From: a virus
Strand: one strand, 5' to 3'
Length of the DNA stretch: 34,794 nt
IMG/VR virus record: IMGVR_UViG_3300035670_000756
Span: 1 to 34,794 of that record
In this document: piece by piece, positions 10,942-34,794 of the stretch
Numbering within the stretch: position 1 is the first letter of the stretch
Layout: the number at the start of each line of letters is the position of its first letter
Made by a program: the position numbers and the translations under genes
The notes under the pieces: generated by a model
What the model was told of the DNA's origin: nothing
What the model saw: the letters and a program-made list of their open reading frames with translations, nothing else
Database searches by the model: none

Positions 10942-12532
10942 CGAAGAAAGTAAATTTCTTTATCACACTGAGTGCTCTAAGTGCGGTAGCAGTGACGGCA
11001 AGAGTGTATGGTCTGATGGACATACTTGGTGCTTTGTCTGCGAAACCCACGAGAATGGTCCAGGAGAGGCTCCAATGGCCTTGGACATACCTGTACTAGT
11101 ACCGAAGGCTTCTAAGCCGTTACAGAGGCCAATAGAGGCCTCCATGGGGGTGTTCCAGGCCATAGCGGATAGGAATATCACCATCGAGACCTGTAGACAC
11201 TATGGTGTCACCTCTACAAATGAGAATCATTCTTATCCTTATGGCAAAGGTTCAAAGATCAGAGTCGTTGAAACTAAGGATTTTAGATGGAGCGGTAAAC
11301 CTGACCATGATCTCTTTGGCATGGACAAGTTCAGTGCTGGTGGTAAGGCAGTGACGCTGGTGGAGGGTGAATTAGATGCTCTAGCGGCATATCAGATGCT
11401 AGGATCAAAGTATGCGGTGGTAAGTGTCAGAAACGGTGCATCAGGTGCGGTGAAAGACTGTCAGAAGGCTTACGAATGGCTCGACAAGTTCGATAGCATT
11501 GTGATCGCATTTGATGCTGATGAACCTGGACAGAAGGCTTCTAAACAGGTGGCAGAGTTGTTCGGTAGTAAGGCCAAGGTGGTGAAGTTCTCGCCAGAGT
11601 TCAAGGACGCTTGCGACTATCTGAAGGCCAATAAGACGGCTCAGTTTGTGCAGGACTGGTGGCGTGCAGAGACTTTCAAGCCTGATGGTGTCATCGATGC
11701 AGAGCAGTTGCGAGATAAGATCAAGACACCCTTGGAGGTTGCGCCGATCCTGTATCCTTGGAATGGATTAAACAAGATGCTCTATGGCATTCGACCTGCT
11801 GAGTTGGTGACTTTTACTGCTGGTTCTGGCCTTGGTAAGTCTACTATGCTTCGTGAATTGGTGGTGCATATCTTGAAGAACAGTCAAGAGAACATTGGAC
11901 TTGCTTTTCTTGAGGAAACCCCTGAGAGGACTATGCGGGGCTTGATTGGCTTGGAGTTGAATAAGAAGATTCACCTGCCTGATGCCGTGTACACTCCAGA
12001 GGAAATCGACAAGGCTTATGACAATCTACAGATAGGGCAGCGAGTATTCTTGTGGGATCACTTCGGTTCTAATGAGATTGATGCTGTATTGAACAGGCTC
12101 AAATACTTCGTAAAAGCACTTAACTGTAACTATCTGGTGCTAGATCACTTGTCTATTCTTGTCTCTGACCAAGCAGCCGCAGACGAAAGACGAGCGTTAG
12201 ATTTGATCATGACCAAATTGAGAATGTTCGTGCAGGAAACCAACACATCGCTTTTGCTTGTCTCTCACCTGAAAAGGCCAGATGGTAAATCACTAGAGGA
12301 TGGCGCAGTGACTTCTTTAAGTTTACTTCGTGGCTCAGGCTCGATCGCTCAGTTGTCAGATGCGGTCATCTCAGCAGAAAGGAACAGTCAAGCAGAGAAC
12401 ATTATAGAAAGGAATACAACCAGGGTTAGAGTGCTTAAATCTAGGTATACAGGCTATACAGGACACGCTTGTGACTTGTATTATGACGATATGACTGGTC
12501 GATTGAGGGAGATTGCACAAGATTCTTTATAA
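10928..12532 (+). CDS. T7 gp4-like DNA primase-helicase
   Basis: A 534-residue bifunctional replication protein. The zinc-binding domain has C16, C19, C35 and C38. The TOPRIM primase domain has VEGELD at 145-150 and FDADEPG with D195 and D197. The DnaB-like helicase domain has Walker A GSGLGKST at 298-305, and further on FLEETPE and LVLDHLS (Walker B region) and SHLKRP. It unwinds the fork and lays down primers for the family A polymerase encoded downstream. Length and order match T7 gp4A. All expected motifs are present. Confidence 0.95.
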   Translation: MAKLNEESKFLYHTECSKCGSSDGKSVWSDGHTWCFVCETHENGPGEAPMALDIPVLVPKASKPLQRPIEASMGVFQAIADRNITIETCRHYGVTSTNENHSYPYGKGSKIRVVETKDFRWSGKPDHDLFGMDKFSAGGKAVTLVEGELDALAAYQMLGSKYAVVSVRNGASGAVKDCQKAYEWLDKFDSIVIAFDADEPGQKASKQVAELFGSKAKVVKFSPEFKDACDYLKANKTAQFVQDWWRAETFKPDGVIDAEQLRDKIKTPLEVAPILYPWNGLNKMLYGIRPAELVTFTAGSGLGKSTMLRELVVHILKNSQENIGLAFLEETPERTMRGLIGLELNKKIHLPDAVYTPEEIDKAYDNLQIGQRVFLWDHFGSNEIDAVLNRLKYFVKALNCNYLVLDHLSILVSDQAAADERRALDLIMTKLRMFVQETNTSLLLVSHLKRPDGKSLEDGAVTSLSLLRGSGSIAQLSDAVISAERNSQAENIIERNTTRVRVLKSRYTGYTGHACDLYYDDMTGRLREIAQDSL

Positions 12533-12548
12533 AAGATTCAAAAATAAC

Positions 12549-12577
12549 TTGACATTTTCTTTGACCTGTGTTAGCAT
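12549..12577 (+). promoter_or_regulatory. Sigma70-type promoter of the endonuclease VII gene
   Basis: TTGACA at 12549-12554 and TAGCAT at 12572-12577 with a 17-base spacer, pointing at ATG 12603. The layout matches the promoter at 2601-2629 of the HNH-like gene: same -35, same spacing, similar leader length. It lies right after the helicase-primase stop. Confidence 0.65.
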
Positions 12578-12602
12578 TTTTATGGTCAAGAAAGGATACT
12601 GT

Positions 12603-13091
12603 ATGAAACAATGTAAAGTTTGTCAAAAAGACTTACCTATAGAGAAGTTTGGAATGAGTTATCATGTTTTAAAAGACGGAGTAAAGAAGGGTTATTATGA
12701 TTCTACTTGTATGGTCTGTCGTAGGACAAAACATTTAGAAAACCCAGAAAAACGCCATATACATCGGAAAGGGTCTTCTAATTGGTATAAAAACAACCCA
12801 AACAAGGTTAAAGAACAACGGCTTCGTAAGTATGGTTTATCTTTGGATGAATACAATAAACTTAGAAAAGAGCAAAACTATAGTTGTGCTGTTTGTGGTA
12901 AACATGAAACGGAAGTTGTACAAGGTAGAGCATTAACGACTGACCATGCACTTCATGTTGATCACTGCCATGAAACAAAAAAAGTAAGAGGACTGTTATG
13001 TACTAATTGCAACACACTACTTGGGAAGTGTCATGACAATTCTCAAATTTTAAAAAAGGCTGTAGACTATCTTAATAGGACTAAAACATGA
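12603..13091 (+). CDS. Endonuclease VII-like (His-Me finger) nuclease
   Basis: A 162-residue protein. ATG 12603 is preferred because the AAGGATACT ribosome site precedes it and the upstream frame crosses the promoter. An N-terminal CxxC pair (CKVC) and CMVC form a first zinc site. The C-terminal domain has YNKLRKEQNYSCAVCG, then LHVDHCHETKKVRGLLCTNC and NTLLG, the endonuclease VII signature with HVDHCH holding the catalytic His. T4 endonuclease VII resolves Holliday junctions and branches; many relatives are free-standing homing nucleases. The private promoter and AT-rich sequence make a mobile origin plausible. Confidence 0.85.
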   Translation: MKQCKVCQKDLPIEKFGMSYHVLKDGVKKGYYDSTCMVCRRTKHLENPEKRHIHRKGSSNWYKNNPNKVKEQRLRKYGLSLDEYNKLRKEQNYSCAVCGKHETEVVQGRALTTDHALHVDHCHETKKVRGLLCTNCNTLLGKCHDNSQILKKAVDYLNRTKT

Positions 13092-18771: not shown

Positions 18772-19051
18772 ATACACTTTTAAAATGATTGAGATTCAAG
18801 ACGACATCGTTGGTGGTTGCGCTAACAACCGCAAGATCACCTATCAAGCTGACTTCGATGATTGTGAAATCTGGGAAGCACCACTCAAAGCATTTGTTGA
18901 CTTCCTGAGTTCTGTCTATGGCTATGACATCTCAGAGCAGATCACTCTTAGTACGCATATTAAATCAGAGATGTTTAACAGCACTCCTCGAAACGGTAAA
19001 GCTTACCTTGATGATCCTGCACAATTTTTTGATAAAGATGACCTGAAATGA
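18764..19051 (+). CDS. Hypothetical protein
   Basis: A 95-residue protein starting at ATG 18764, overlapping the nuclease by 8 bases, with GAAAGG upstream. It contains NNRKITYQADFDDCEIWEAP and LKAFVDFLSSVYGYDIS. Mixed alpha/beta by eye, no recognised motif. Its stop overlaps the next gene, an HNH-like nuclease, as ATGA. Confidence 0.6.
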   Translation: MHKYTFKMIEIQDDIVGGCANNRKITYQADFDDCEIWEAPLKAFVDFLSSVYGYDISEQITLSTHIKSEMFNSTPRNGKAYLDDPAQFFDKDDLK

Positions 19052-19455
19052 CTAGAGAAGAAAAAAATGCCGCACAACGAGAGTACCGTAAGAAAACCCA
19101 AAACCAGGCTACATACAAGTATGAAAAAACTATTAACGGGTTCTTGGTAAGAAAATATAGGAATATGCTATCTCGTGTCTCTGGGATTCAAAAACAGAAG
19201 GCTCATCTTTATGAAAGTAAATCAATCGTGACTAAAGAAGAATTTTATAGTTGGGCAAAAAGTAGTTTTGCTTTTATTGAACTTTGGAATGCTTATGTTG
19301 ATTCTTGTTATGAACGCAAACTATGCCCTACGGTTGATCGTATAGATTCAAAACTTGGGTATGATCTTGAAAACATGCAATGGATCACACACTCTGAAAA
19401 TTCACGCAAAGGCTCATTAAGCCGATGGGGTAAAGATGAAACTTCTATTTCTTGA
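19048..19455 (+). CDS. HNH-like homing-type endonuclease
   Basis: A 135-residue basic protein. The C-terminal half has RKLCPTVDRIDSKLGYDLEN, then MQWITHSENSRKGS, the same D-R-I-D...G-Y...N pattern as the HNH-like protein at 2651. The sequence is AT-rich relative to its neighbours. It is tucked between two genes by an ATGA overlap in front and a 20-base overlap behind, so unlike the other two promoter-bearing nucleases it depends on operon transcription. Probably a free-standing mobile nuclease. Confidence 0.65.
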   Translation: MTREEKNAAQREYRKKTQNQATYKYEKTINGFLVRKYRNMLSRVSGIQKQKAHLYESKSIVTKEEFYSWAKSSFAFIELWNAYVDSCYERKLCPTVDRIDSKLGYDLENMQWITHSENSRKGSLSRWGKDETSIS

Positions 19456-20170
19456 TGTAGAGACAAGTCCCAACACAGCGCACATCTGGGGATTAAGGGA
19501 TCAGTACATTAACCCTAATCATATTTTAGAATCTTCGTATGTGCTATGTTGGGCAGCTAAGTGGTACGAAAGCGATGAAATCATGTTTGATTCTGTTTTA
19601 AAAAACAGAGAAAAAAACATGCTTAAGAAGATACATCAACTTATCTCTGAAGCAGATGCTGTCGTTCACTACAATGGCACTCGGTTTGATATGCCTGTAC
19701 TGAATAAAGAGTTTCTGCTGAACAACATGTTGCCACCAGAGCCGTATAAGCAACTTGACTTGTTAAAGGTTGTTAGAAAAGAATTTAGGTTTGCGAGTAA
19801 CAAACTTGACCACATTGCACAGCGTCTTAACCTGGGCAAAAAGACAGAGCATGAAGGCTATACTTTGTGGGTCAAGTGCATGAATAAAGATAAAGAAGCA
19901 TGGGCGAAAATGGAAGAATACAACAAGCAAGATGTTCTTCTGTTAGAGAGGTTGTATGATCGCCTATTACCTTGGTTGGGTAAGCAGCATCCTAATCGAA
20001 ACTTGTTTGATGGACAGGGATGTGCAACTTGCGGAAGTAATTATTTGCAAAAGCGAGGTTTTAGTTATACAATCACAGGTAAGTTTCAAAGGTATCAGTG
20101 CATGGATTGTGGCTCTTGGTCTAAGTCCAACAAGTCCCTTCAAACCAGAGCAGAGTTGTCACATGCGTAA
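19436..20170 (+). CDS. DEDDy-type 3'-5' exonuclease with C-terminal zinc ribbon
   Basis: A 244-residue protein. Exonuclease motifs are in order: LFLDVETSPN (D7, E9), VHYNGTRFDMPVLN near 75-88, and YNKQDVLLLERLY near 163, giving the Y-x3-D form. The fold is that of RNase-H-like predicted exonucleases. After residue about 190 a zinc ribbon follows (CATCGS and CMDCGS). The fusion suggests a nuclease that binds a particular nucleic acid through the ribbon. Substrate, DNA or RNA, cannot be told from sequence. It lies beside other recombination and repair nucleases. Confidence 0.8.
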   Translation: MKLLFLDVETSPNTAHIWGLRDQYINPNHILESSYVLCWAAKWYESDEIMFDSVLKNREKNMLKKIHQLISEADAVVHYNGTRFDMPVLNKEFLLNNMLPPEPYKQLDLLKVVRKEFRFASNKLDHIAQRLNLGKKTEHEGYTLWVKCMNKDKEAWAKMEEYNKQDVLLLERLYDRLLPWLGKQHPNRNLFDGQGCATCGSNYLQKRGFSYTITGKFQRYQCMDCGSWSKSNKSLQTRAELSHA

Positions 20171-20178
20171 GAAAACTT

Positions 20179-20517
20179 ATGGAACCAATCAATCTACATA
20201 ATGTACACCGATTCTTTGACTGGATTACTATGATCAACATTAAGGAAGAACAAGAAAAGATGCTAGAAGAGGCCATCAACATAAACCAGAAGTTAAAGAA
20301 AACCACACAGATTGGTGGCGACCACTACCAGAACAACATCCAAGCTTGGGATGTGATGATGGATTGGGGTTTAGATCCTTGGCTGTCCAATGTGGTTAAG
20401 TACATTCAGAGGCATCATAGGAAGAATGGTAAACAAGACTTAGAGAAGGCACTGCATTACATCAAGTACGCTATCGACAACTACGATCAGATTAAAGAAA
20501 AGTATTATGTTCGGTAG
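20179..20517 (+). CDS. DUF3310 family protein
   Basis: A 112-residue protein. The last 65 residues carry the DUF3310 pattern: HYQNNIQAWDVMMDWGLDPW, then LSNVVKYIQRHHRKNGKQDL and KALHYIKYAIDNY. DUF3310 proteins are common in phage early regions and sometimes labelled nucleotide-kinase-like, but no activity is firmly shown. An internal ATG at 20230 is an alternative start; no strong ribosome site separates the two. It overlaps the glycosyltransferase-like gene. Confidence 0.8.
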   Translation: MEPINLHNVHRFFDWITMINIKEEQEKMLEEAININQKLKKTTQIGGDHYQNNIQAWDVMMDWGLDPWLSNVVKYIQRHHRKNGKQDLEKALHYIKYAIDNYDQIKEKYYVR

Positions 20518-21427
20518 TCGCAGTTCTGTTCAGGATCTCAAGCGTGGTTACAAGTATCTCTATGAAGGAAACTATAAGCAAGGTTTCCCGCTGGTAGAGG
20601 CTCGTCATCCTGATAAGTATCCTATGGCAACTGGTGAGAAGAATGCGTATCACAGGAGTTCCTTCTGGCATCCTGGTGTGTCTGTGAAGAACAAGGATGT
20701 GTTCGTGGTGCATGAGGCTGGCAGAGGCGATGTCATCCATTTCTGTCGGTATATTAAGATGCTTTCTGAGTTGGGTGTTAAGAGTATCCAAGTCATCGCA
20801 GCACCAGAGATGATTCCGTTGCTCAGTAGGCTAGGTTATCCTACGATGAACACTCCAAGGAATCCACCAGAGGGTTGTATTAGGATATGGATGATGTCTT
20901 TACCTGCTTTGTTGCTAGAACACAACAAATTTCCACATAATTGGACAGAGAAACACTACTTATCGGAGGGTTATTTAAGAAACAGAAACTTGACGGAAGT
21001 CAATGACAAAGTAGGAATTTGTTGGTACACTAATTCAACAGCCTGGAACAGAGATTATCGACAGATACCTCACGACTTGGTTGAGAACTGTTTAAAGAAG
21101 TTTCCTAAGACAGAGTTTGTACCGTTGCAGATGGAAAGCACTTTCATGCCAAGGTATTTTACTACCTTGAACAACATGGCAGTGTCAGCAGATTTGATTC
21201 AGCAGTTGAAGGCAGTAGTAACTATAGATACTTCTATACTGCACTTAGCAGGTGCATTAGGAGTAAAAACATTTGGACTAGTAGGAAATGGGGTGAAAAT
21301 GGACTGGAGATGGTTACCTAAACAGAGGGAGACAGCATGGTATGATTCCGTGACTTGTTTTTATAATGAACCAGCGCATGAATGGAGGCCATCGCTGATG
21401 TCAGCGTTGGAAGAAGCATGCCGTTGA
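20507..21427 (+). CDS. TPR-GT/GT9-like glycosyltransferase
   Basis: A 306-residue protein. The start (KRGYKYLYEGNYKQGFPLVE) looks like a last TPR unit. VFVVHEAGRGDVIHFCRYIK at about 64-83 matches the E-x-G-x-GD-I-x-F-RY loop of bacterial TPR-linked glycosyltransferases. The C-terminal half has VGICWYTNSTAWNRDYRQIP and VVTIDTSILHLAGALGVKTF, the D-T-x-x-x-H-L-A-G-A-L-G nucleotide-sugar site of GT9/GT41-type enzymes, then DWRWLP and WYDS. The acceptor is unknown: surface glycan, a protein or DNA. Its place between DUF3310 and the ribonucleotide reductase is unusual. Confidence 0.7.
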   Translation: MFGSRSSVQDLKRGYKYLYEGNYKQGFPLVEARHPDKYPMATGEKNAYHRSSFWHPGVSVKNKDVFVVHEAGRGDVIHFCRYIKMLSELGVKSIQVIAAPEMIPLLSRLGYPTMNTPRNPPEGCIRIWMMSLPALLLEHNKFPHNWTEKHYLSEGYLRNRNLTEVNDKVGICWYTNSTAWNRDYRQIPHDLVENCLKKFPKTEFVPLQMESTFMPRYFTTLNNMAVSADLIQQLKAVVTIDTSILHLAGALGVKTFGLVGNGVKMDWRWLPKQRETAWYDSVTCFYNEPAHEWRPSLMSALEEACR

Positions 21428-21576
21428 CATTGAGGGATGTAATGAGTAAACTTACGACTCTAGATGAGATCACTTTGTTAGAAGTCTTAGAGATCACATC
21501 AGAAGAGTTAGTAGAACGATTCATAGACAAAGTAGAAAATAAGTACGACCAACTGGAGAAAGAACTAGATGACTAA
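21418..21576 (+). CDS. Conserved small phage protein
   Basis: A 52-residue protein starting at ATG 21418, overlapping the glycosyltransferase end by 10 bases. MPLTLRDVMSKLTTLDEITL, then LEVLEITSEELVERFIDKVE is a pattern seen in many phages (DEITLLE-L-I-SE-LV-RF-D-IE). All-helical. Function unknown; it is often found next to replication genes. Its stop overlaps the reductase start as ATGA. Confidence 0.65.
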   Translation: MPLTLRDVMSKLTTLDEITLLEVLEITSEELVERFIDKVENKYDQLEKELDD

Positions 21577-23470
21577 AATGGACAACTATCAGAACTTTAT
21601 CGCTAAGAGCCGCTACAGTCGGTTTCTGACTAACGACAATCGCCGTGAGAACTGGACAGAAACAGTGGATCGATATTTCACTTTCCTGTTCAACTCAGTT
21701 CAAGAGAAGTATGGTTGGGTTCCTGGCGATGACCTTAAAGTAGACTTGATCAATGCAGTAAAGAACCTTGAAGTAATGCCTTCTATGAGGGCTATAATGA
21801 CCGCTGGTAAGGCTCTGGAGCGTGATAACACTGCTGGCTACAACTGCTCTTACTTGCCTGTGGATGACCCTAAAGCCTTTGATGAGGCTATGTATATCCT
21901 GCTCTGCGGTACAGGGGTAGGCTTCTCTGTGGAGCAGCAATATGTTAATCAACTTCCTGAAGTACCTGATCAGCTTTTCGATAGTAAAACTACTATCGTT
22001 GTCTCCGACAGCAAAGAAGGATGGGCTAAGTCTCTACGGCAACTCATCGCTCTTCTTTATTCTGGAGAGATTCCAAAGTGGGATGTATCGAAGGTTCGAC
22101 CTGCAGGAGAGAGACTCAAGACTTTTGGCGGTAGAGCCAGTGGTCCTGGACCGTTGGAGGAGTTATTTAAATTCACAGTTTCCAAATTTAAAGGAGCCTG
22201 TGGTCGTCGTCTGTCATCGATCGAATGCCATGATATTCTCTGCAAGATCGGGGAAGTTGTTGTGGTCGGTGGTGTGCGCCGTTCAGCTATGATTTCTCTG
22301 TCAGACCTGCAAGACGATAAGATGCGTCACGCTAAAGCAGGTGCATGGTGGGAACAGAATGGTCAACGAGCATTGGCGAATAACTCAGCCACTTACACCC
22401 AAAAGCCTGACATTGGTCAATTCTTGGATGAGTGGACTAGCCTGTATCACAGTCACTCTGGTGAGCGTGGTATCTTCAGTCGTGCCGCTGCTATCTCCCA
22501 AGTAACCAAGACTGGTAGGCGTGATCCTAACCATCAGTTTGGTACTAACCCTTGTTCAGAGATTATTCTTCGTCCTTACCAATTCTGTAATCTTACAGAG
22601 GTTGTTGTTCGTGCTGAAGACACTGTAGAGACCTTGGAGAAGAAGGTTAAACTTGCCACCATCCTTGGTACTCTGCAATCTACGCTGACACACTTCCCTT
22701 ACCTGCGTAAGATTTGGCAGAAGAACACTGAAGAAGAGCGTTTGCTTGGTGTATCCTTCACTGGTATTTTTGATAACAAATGGATGTCGGAGATTTCTGA
22801 TGAAACTAAAGCAAATCTGGAGCGACTTAAAAATGTCTCCATTAGTACCAATGCTGACATCGCTAACAGTCTGGGAATCACTCCGTCATGTGCGATCACT
22901 TGCGTTAAGCCTTCTGGCACTGTCAGCCAGCTTGTTGATTCTGCCTCTGGCATTCATGCTCGACATTCTCGTTATTATATTCGTAGGGTTCGTGGAGATA
23001 AAAAAGATCCTCTTACGAAATTTATGATGGATAACGGTGTACCTGCTGAAGACTGTGTTATGCGTCCAGAGTCAACAGCAGTGTTCTCATTCCCTCAGAA
23101 AGCACCTGAAGGAGCAACGCTGCGTGATGATCTTACTGCCATTGCACACCTTGACATCTGGTTGATGTATCAGCGTCACTGGTGCGATCACAAGCCTTCT
23201 GTGACCATCTCTGTGAAGGAAGATGAATGGATGGATGTTGGAGCGTGGGTGTGGCGACACTTTGATGAGGTGTCTGGAGTATCATTCCTACCGCATGATG
23301 GAGGTACATATCGACAAGCCCCTTATGAAGAGTGTTCAAAAGAGGACTATGAAGCACTGTTGGCTAAGATGCCCACTCACATCGATTGGGATTCTTTGCA
23401 GGAAGAAGAAGATAATGTCAAAGGAGCGCAAGAACTTGCTTGTAGTGCTGGTTCTTGTGAGATCGTATGA
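21569..23470 (+). CDS. nrdJ: Class II (adenosylcobalamin) ribonucleotide reductase
   Basis: A 633-residue enzyme of the monomeric RTPR kind. TAGYNCSYLPV near residue 89 holds the first redox cysteine, GTNPCSEIIL near 331 holds the active-site Asn-Cys-Glu, and CVKPSGTVSQL and SGIHARHSRYYIRRVRGDK are typical class II segments. The C-terminus ends with C625 and C630, the swinging pair reduced by thioredoxin. No thioredoxin gene is visible here. It makes deoxynucleotides without needing oxygen but requires cobalamin from the host. It is shorter than the Lactobacillus enzyme (739 residues). Confidence 0.93.
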   Translation: MTKMDNYQNFIAKSRYSRFLTNDNRRENWTETVDRYFTFLFNSVQEKYGWVPGDDLKVDLINAVKNLEVMPSMRAIMTAGKALERDNTAGYNCSYLPVDDPKAFDEAMYILLCGTGVGFSVEQQYVNQLPEVPDQLFDSKTTIVVSDSKEGWAKSLRQLIALLYSGEIPKWDVSKVRPAGERLKTFGGRASGPGPLEELFKFTVSKFKGACGRRLSSIECHDILCKIGEVVVVGGVRRSAMISLSDLQDDKMRHAKAGAWWEQNGQRALANNSATYTQKPDIGQFLDEWTSLYHSHSGERGIFSRAAAISQVTKTGRRDPNHQFGTNPCSEIILRPYQFCNLTEVVVRAEDTVETLEKKVKLATILGTLQSTLTHFPYLRKIWQKNTEEERLLGVSFTGIFDNKWMSEISDETKANLERLKNVSISTNADIANSLGITPSCAITCVKPSGTVSQLVDSASGIHARHSRYYIRRVRGDKKDPLTKFMMDNGVPAEDCVMRPESTAVFSFPQKAPEGATLRDDLTAIAHLDIWLMYQRHWCDHKPSVTISVKEDEWMDVGAWVWRHFDEVSGVSFLPHDGGTYRQAPYEECSKEDYEALLAKMPTHIDWDSLQEEEDNVKGAQELACSAGSCEIV

Positions 23471-34050: not shown

Positions 34051-34794
34051 TTATTCTCCTATGCTTGGAAATTCTTTATCTGGCGGTGTAAAGGTTGTTG
34101 TGTATCTTGCAACGCGACTAATGCGGAGGTCGTCAACAAAACCATTTACTGTACTGGCGCCCAAATTGTAAGATGCTGATCCGATGACCGTTCGTGAATT
34201 TAGATAAGTATTGTTGTCTGTGTATGTTGAGCCAACCTGTGTTCCATCAAGAAACATCTTTGTGAATCCAGAAGATTTGCAAATTGCGAGGTGATACCAA
34301 GTGGAACCTGACACCGCGCCTGACGACGATGAAATCCTGTTGCTTCCATTAACGAAAAATCTAAGAGTTCCAGTAGATTCGACAGTAATTGTTGGATAAA
34401 TGCCATTCGTACTTGCTGGTCTTTGATCTAAAAATACAAAAGAACCAGACACGGGCAAGGCGTTTAAGTAGAACCAAAACTCTATTGTCCAGTCGCCACT
34501 ACCTAAAGTAAGAGTTTCGCTTGCAAAACTTTGATATAAATAGTCGGTGGTTCCATCAAATTCTATTGAACCAGTGCCGTATTTTTTAACGGTTGTATCA
34601 ATCTGTGCGCTATTGACTGTTTCAAAAGTATTGAAACATGTATTGTCAAAAATGCCACCATTAGTGAAATTTAGTAGGAGTTCGGTGTTTGCAGTAGATG
34701 TTGGCGGTGCAGTCGGAACAGTGACGGATGAATAACCTGTGCCAATTAAGACCTCAAGCCCAGAAATGTAACCATCTAACGCAACGCCAGGGCC
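34051..34794 (-). CDS. Tail fibre with LamG-like domain, C-terminal part (cut by window edge)
   Basis: The minus-strand frame is open from the right edge to the stop at 34051, giving the last 247 residues; no start codon of the gene is in the window. A Thr/Pro-rich linker (VTVPTAPPTSTANTE) is followed by a concanavalin/LamG_3 domain: LLLNFTNGGIFDNT, VKKYGTGSIEFDGTTDYL, DWTIEFWFYLN, TWYHLAICKSSG, KMFLDGTQVGS and VDDLRISRVARYTTTFTPP. LamG domains bind glycans, so this is probably the receptor-binding end of a tail fibre. Confidence 0.85.
   Translation of the reverse strand, partial: GPGVALDGYISGLEVLIGTGYSSVTVPTAPPTSTANTELLLNFTNGGIFDNTCFNTFETVNSAQIDTTVKKYGTGSIEFDGTTDYLYQSFASETLTLGSGDWTIEFWFYLNALPVSGSFVFLDQRPASTNGIYPTITVESTGTLRFFVNGSNRISSSSGAVSGSTWYHLAICKSSGFTKMFLDGTQVGSTYTDNNTYLNSRTVIGSASYNLGASTVNGFVDDLRISRVARYTTTFTPPDKEFPSIGE

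Follow-up and report, generated by a model that had tools for sequence, protein, structure and literature searches.

What does a sugar-transferring enzyme do among the replication genes of a phage, and how firmly is it anchored there? The familiar examples of phage enzymes that transfer sugars come from temperate phages, where they change surface antigens of the host, and from T-even phages, where they serve to coat the DNA. The virus record analysed here (34,794 bases in all, hereafter the window) encodes a predicted glycosyltransferase (GT) between a DUF3310 gene and the gene of a class II ribonucleotide reductase (nrdJ). We describe the gene, its product and its relatives, and then weigh what the enzyme may act on.

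The locus and its predicted enzyme

The genes of this region follow each other on the same strand, as listed below together with the relevant features of the GT.

19436-20170, + strand: 3'-5' exonuclease-type gene, upstream of the DUF3310 gene (PHROG 403, E 7e-88)
20179-20517, + strand: DUF3310 gene (Pfam and PHROG matches; nucleotide-kinase-associated PHROGs), left border of the slot
20507-21427, + strand: predicted GT9-fold glycosyltransferase of 306 aa with an ATG start (Pfam GT9, AlphaFold2 model, 94% identical copy in contig L001)
20519-20605, + strand: helix pair at residues 5-33, a TPR-like remnant preceding the catalytic domain (model helices 5-19 and 23-33)
20720-20731, + strand: G72-R-G-D75 motif, D75 being aligned to D13 of E. 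coli WaaC
21227-21244, + strand: predicted donor-binding motif D241-T-S-I-L-H246, matching D261-T-G-L-S-H266 of WaaC
21418-21576, + strand: small acidic ORF of 52 aa, right border of the slot, conserved in GT-positive and GT-negative loci
21569-23470, + strand: class II (B12-dependent) ribonucleotide reductase gene nrdJ, used as synteny anchor (PHROG 367, E 3.9e-189; Pfam RNR-II insertion domain)

The 3' end of the DUF3310 gene overlaps the start of the GT by 11 bases. At the other end, the TGA stop codon of the GT (last base 21427) lies inside ATGCCGTTGA, the start region of the small ORF, whose most plausible start, 21418, was picked by comparison with relatives; the stop of this ORF (21576) in turn overlaps the start of nrdJ (21569). 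These successive overlaps suggest that the four genes form a translationally coupled block; with the exonuclease gene, they make up one tight operon. By composition the GT is no recent foreign arrival, its GC content (43.4%) equalling that of the window (43.1%). The initial annotation had placed the GT just before the reductase. It is indeed upstream of nrdJ, but not adjacent to it, since the small ORF (21418-21576) intervenes. This ORF is conserved more strictly than the GT, being found in phages with and without it, and matches no Pfam and no PADLOC family. PADLOC defence models do not match the GT or the DUF3310 protein either. Of the window proteins scanned, none was recognised as the product of a lysogeny gene. 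Elsewhere in the window, two distinct endonuclease VII-like genes (12513-13091 and 19048-19455) occur in one small phage genome, and an open-ended protein at the edge (34051-34794) matches baseplate and virion structural PHROGs of larger phages (E ~1e-30).

Judged from its sequence and its model, the product of 20507-21427 is a genuine glycosyltransferase with predicted enzyme activity, a stand-alone phage form of a bacterial family in which a GT9 domain is linked to TPRs. Its match to the Pfam family Glyco_transf_9 (24.9 bits, E 1.5e-5) is above the curated cut-off (gathering score 22), which three further phage members also exceed. In tblastn comparisons, the ORF matches 90 plasmid records, several of them named “tetratricopeptide repeat-containing glycosyltransferase family protein”. 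Bacterial TPR-linked glycosyltransferases (for example L226, L189, L198, and L167) are homologous over the whole phage GT with 24-31% identity, many over more than 90% of its length and up to its full length. G170, Q208, D241, H246, G252, W267, W278, and Y279 are invariant in both groups. A profile of the GT also matches E. coli WaaC, WaaF, and WaaU (probability 96.9, E 1.5e-10, 203 columns). By contrast, the NCBIfam equivalog of heptosyltransferase I, TIGR02193, is not reached (19.6 against a cut-off of 185.3 bits). Thus, the GT has a predicted fold and a motif in common with heptosyltransferase I, but it stands outside the equivalog. PHROGs contain no match to the GT, and a PDB search with its single sequence returned noise only.

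The AlphaFold2 model, for which phage and bacterial homologues were aligned to the GT, has a pLDDT of 89.7 and a pTM of 0.89; an earlier model had reached 78 in pLDDT before the bacterial homologues were added. The best solved folds are all GT9 enzymes, namely WaaC (2h1h, Z 15.2, rmsd 3.4, 221 aligned residues), 3tov (Z 15.2), WaaF (1psw, Z 14.5), and TibC (Z 14.1 over 234 residues), the last being the top Foldseek match of the deeper model. A plant NDH-complex subunit comes next (Z 12-13), and other folds stay below 10 (7-10 for unrelated rows). GT9 chains lead and no GT41 chain occurs among the structural matches listed. Together with the Pfam match and the exact ORF coordinates, these structural matches bear out the GT9-like assignment proposed in the initial annotation, including its expectation that the best structural match would be a glycosyltransferase.

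The residues of the nucleotide-sugar pocket, on which that proposal also depended, are kept. D75, D241, and H246 align with D13, D261, and H266 of WaaC, where D13 is taken to be the catalytic base and the functional roles of the other aligned residues are likewise assumed from established knowledge. G72, G74, and D75 are each at least 90% conserved in the alignment of phage and bacterial sequences, and D241 and H246 are invariant across 28 of them. R185 of the window GT aligns with K192 of WaaC, and most phage relatives have K at that position. Hence, the GT appears catalytically intact, with pocket and catalytic positions kept. WaaC and WaaF, the GT9 LPS heptosyltransferases of E. coli, have the same fold (Z 14.5-15.2) and the same catalytic and donor motifs as the GT model, but only 12-16% identity. 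TibC also has the GT9-type fold, with 10-12% identity. It is a dodecameric, iron-containing protein heptosyltransferase.

What separates the phage enzyme from its bacterial relatives is the region ahead of the catalytic domain. Bacterial homologues (n = 80) have a median of 275 aa preceding the matched domain, and strong TPR matches were found in 4/4 of those scanned. In the phage GT, a single helix pair is seen, no Pfam TPR model matches at E<=1, and the motif RG..YL.EG.Y..GF.L.E.R falls, in the alignment, on the last repeat region that the bacterial proteins have. The description of a stand-alone form with at most one TPR unit is therefore accurate. In a tree with 75 bacterial sequences, which bear TPR arrays, 15 phage representatives without arrays form a single, fully supported clade of their own.

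A fixed slot with exchangeable content

A scan of viral contigs with the single GT sequence gave one relative only, and an nrdJ-anchored scan was then used. It recovered 80 loci, and the GT is encoded in about half of them. A search with a GT alignment gave 72 further locus records, some on contigs common to the nrdJ-derived set. In these, the small ORF and then nrdJ lie downstream of the GT in 72/72 cases and DUF3310 lies upstream in 66/72, the remainder being truncated or having a different upstream gene. Such conservation at the same place in more than 70 other viral locus records argues that the ORF did not arise by chance. The phage GTs thus constitute one phage-only clade in one slot.

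Among sequenced phages, the window nrdJ has 68% identity to its counterparts in Lentibacter phage ICBM2 (vB_LenP_ICBM2; Zobellviridae, Cobavirinae) and Sinorhizobium phage phiM6. The relation to Cobavirinae makes an alphaproteobacterial host likely for the GT-positive phages of this group. ICBM2 has the same overall replication block as the window, but it lacks the GT and a MazG-related gene precedes its nrdJ; the text of the cobavirus paper does not contain “glycosyl”. About 50,000 sequenced phage records hold no close GT copy in this context. One isolate-phage relative was found, in Synechococcus phage BUCT-ZZ01; it forms a fusion with a methyltransferase-like part, next to tail-fibre genes. 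In addition, A0A6J5PAN8 of an uncultured Caudovirales phage, automatically named “Glycosyl transferase, family 9” (302 aa, 38% identity, TM 0.82), belongs, by sequence and model comparison, to this phage family and is already in the databases.

The slot could be read in 74 nrdJ loci, with the GT present in 41 and absent from 33. When it is absent, 3-19 bases separate the end of the DUF3310 match from the small-ORF match in 28/33 loci, and a gap of 218-282 bases is found in the other 5/33. The junctions are clean. L081 and L129 match at 92% until DUF3310 ends and at 97% from the next base, with ~975 extra bases in L129, and the pair L082/L137 has the same junction. On the nrdJ tree (85 rows), GT presence changes 12 times, or at least 8 times if only starred branches are trusted; recombination of nrdJ could inflate this count, and the tree does not separate gain from loss.

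Alleles are exchanged as well. L024 and many GT-positive phages have nrdJ genes that are 97-99% identical, while their GTs are only 54-56% identical; a GT identity of 54% is found with an nrdJ identity as high as 99.5%. Along L024 and L026, identity is 94% before the GT, about 45-82% within it and 97-99% after it. The swap is confined to the GT gene, and the pattern suggests that homologous recombination within the conserved flanks has put one allele in place of another. The GT is therefore a cassette that can be present, absent or exchanged in a fixed slot whose neighbours stay put, a property that the initial annotation had missed.

Several further differences were observed around the slot. 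The place of the exonuclease (19436-20170 in the window) is taken by a metallophosphoesterase-like ORF in L001 (285-1061) and in many relatives. In the nearest sister clade (L088, 4731-5992), an ORF with a PAPS-reductase domain (PF01507) and a DUF6378 gene stand in place of DUF3310. Modules are swapped throughout the stretch that precedes nrdJ. The DUF6378 protein of L088 and the DUF3310 protein of the window begin with a common leader, M-E/Q-P-I/V-N-L, suggesting domain swapping behind it. Between the window and L001, the 5' half of the GT (20507-20941) has a dS of 0.48 and the second half one of 0.10, which hints at a recombination breakpoint within the gene. One GT clade (L061, 4840-5826, and relatives) carries a lysine-rich C-terminal tail, KKRSKPKKSVV, that other clades do not have and that could aid contact with membranes or nucleic acids. 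The idea of an unusually fast acceptor (N-terminal) half gained no support: in all but one identity band, the N- and C-terminal halves differ about as much as they do in bacterial homologues.

What the enzyme may act on

Because presence is patchy and modules are also swapped in neighbouring slots, the GT might be a selfish or neutral passenger, kept by hot-spot recombination with no fixed benefit. This reading is the least probable of those we weighed. Indeed, the GT has a dN/dS of 0.11 when the window is compared with L001, close to the value for nrdJ (0.14), and such purifying selection indicates that the gene is maintained. Active-site residues are kept across alleles that are 30% identical, and the cassette bears no nuclease or transposase signature. 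By composition the GT is no recent foreign arrival, its GC content (43.4%) equalling that of the window (43.1%).

The position of the gene, between DUF3310 and nrdJ in a nucleotide operon, would be accounted for if the enzyme glycosylated phage DNA bases and shielded the genome from nucleases, and phage DNA glucosylation has established precedents. We nevertheless regard a DNA target as improbable. The initial annotation had already counted the lack of a visible base hydroxylase against it, and the survey of relatives strengthens this point. Genes of ThyA-type thymidylate synthase/hydroxymethylase were found in 0/18 related contigs, which may be fragments, and control genomes were positive; ThyX was found in only 2/18, one of which is GT-negative. 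A Tet/JBP search also gave 0/18, but its control was silent too. Finally, comparing 14 GT-positive with 7 GT-negative long contigs (a small sample of possible fragments), no gene family tracks the GT except the GT itself. No tail-fibre family does so either, which counts against the envelope-glycan reading discussed below, as a receptor-linked role might predict one.

The same comparison weakens the idea that the GT glycosylates a cytosolic protein, either of the host (a defence, flagellar or pilus component) or of the phage virion, as bacterial TPR-GT relatives may do. Even so, we give a protein target appreciable weight, as a close second. FlmG of Caulobacter crescentus, the sole characterised enzyme combining TPRs and a GT-B domain that we found in the literature, O-glycosylates flagellins (PMC7591256). 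It has the modular architecture of the bacterial relatives of the phage GT. However, its TPR part, and not its GT part, binds flagellin and is needed for sufficient modification, and the free GT domain neither bound flagellin nor modified it sufficiently (PMC7591256). In the phage GT, this docking array is gone. A flagellin-like ORF was found within ~6 kb in only 1/80 loci of bacterial homologues by a crude motif scan. In favour of a protein, the top Foldseek match is TibC, and the BUCT-ZZ01 relative adjoins tail-fibre genes.

Our leading guess, held tentatively, is that the GT acts on a host envelope glycan, at the level of its precursor or core. The loss of the TPR array argues for another way to find the acceptor, and allele swapping argues for an acceptor that varies. 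Host envelope glycans fit both points, and a protein fits them nearly as well. Fold matches that include the LPS heptosyltransferases WaaC (Z 15.2) and WaaF (Z 14.5) support the glycan. Against it, TibC matches about as strongly as WaaC, the acceptor half is not clearly more variable than in bacterial homologues, and allele swapping is also compatible with action on a protein or with a role in anti-defence.

With a host envelope glycan as acceptor, the following course may be proposed. The GT would be made together with the replication genes and would probably be soluble in the host cytosol; it has no strong transmembrane stretch (Kyte-Doolittle maximum of 1.3 over 19 residues). It would take a nucleotide-activated sugar probably provided by the host, as no sugar-nucleotide epimerase was found in the 18 related contigs, where the Pfam epimerase family alone was searched (control positive in 14/14 known genomes). 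The sugar would be placed on a cytosolic acceptor, by preference the precursor or core of an envelope glycan, and the infected cell or its debris would then no longer bind competing or progeny phages. The missing TPR array would represent the loss of the protein-docking part used by bacterial relatives, and exchange of GT alleles would follow differences between host glycans. A bolder extension, which we think doubtful, sees a “glycan-tailoring slot” in this phage lineage, that is, one operon position beside the ribonucleotide reductase that is kept for GT9 enzymes able to replace one another, every one of them fitted to a different sugar acceptor in the host, with alleles swappable like serotype-conversion genes.

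Meaning for this phage group

The GT9 enzyme family was known already, and the sister protein A0A6J5PAN8 is deposited. For the fixed slot, the presence or absence and the allele swapping of this phage GT, we found no published description in searches on GT9/TPR enzymes in phages, Zobellviridae glycosyltransferases, and cyanophage TPR-GTs, with subscription journals partly covered. Isolates would be needed to go further, given that sequenced phage records hold no close copy in this context. The GT9 enzyme described here sits in the replication operon of an aquatic, lytic-looking and environmentally common phage group. Clean present/absent pairs and allele swaps in near-identical relatives provide a natural contrast, through which the function could be tested by comparing phages that carry, lack or have swapped the GT.
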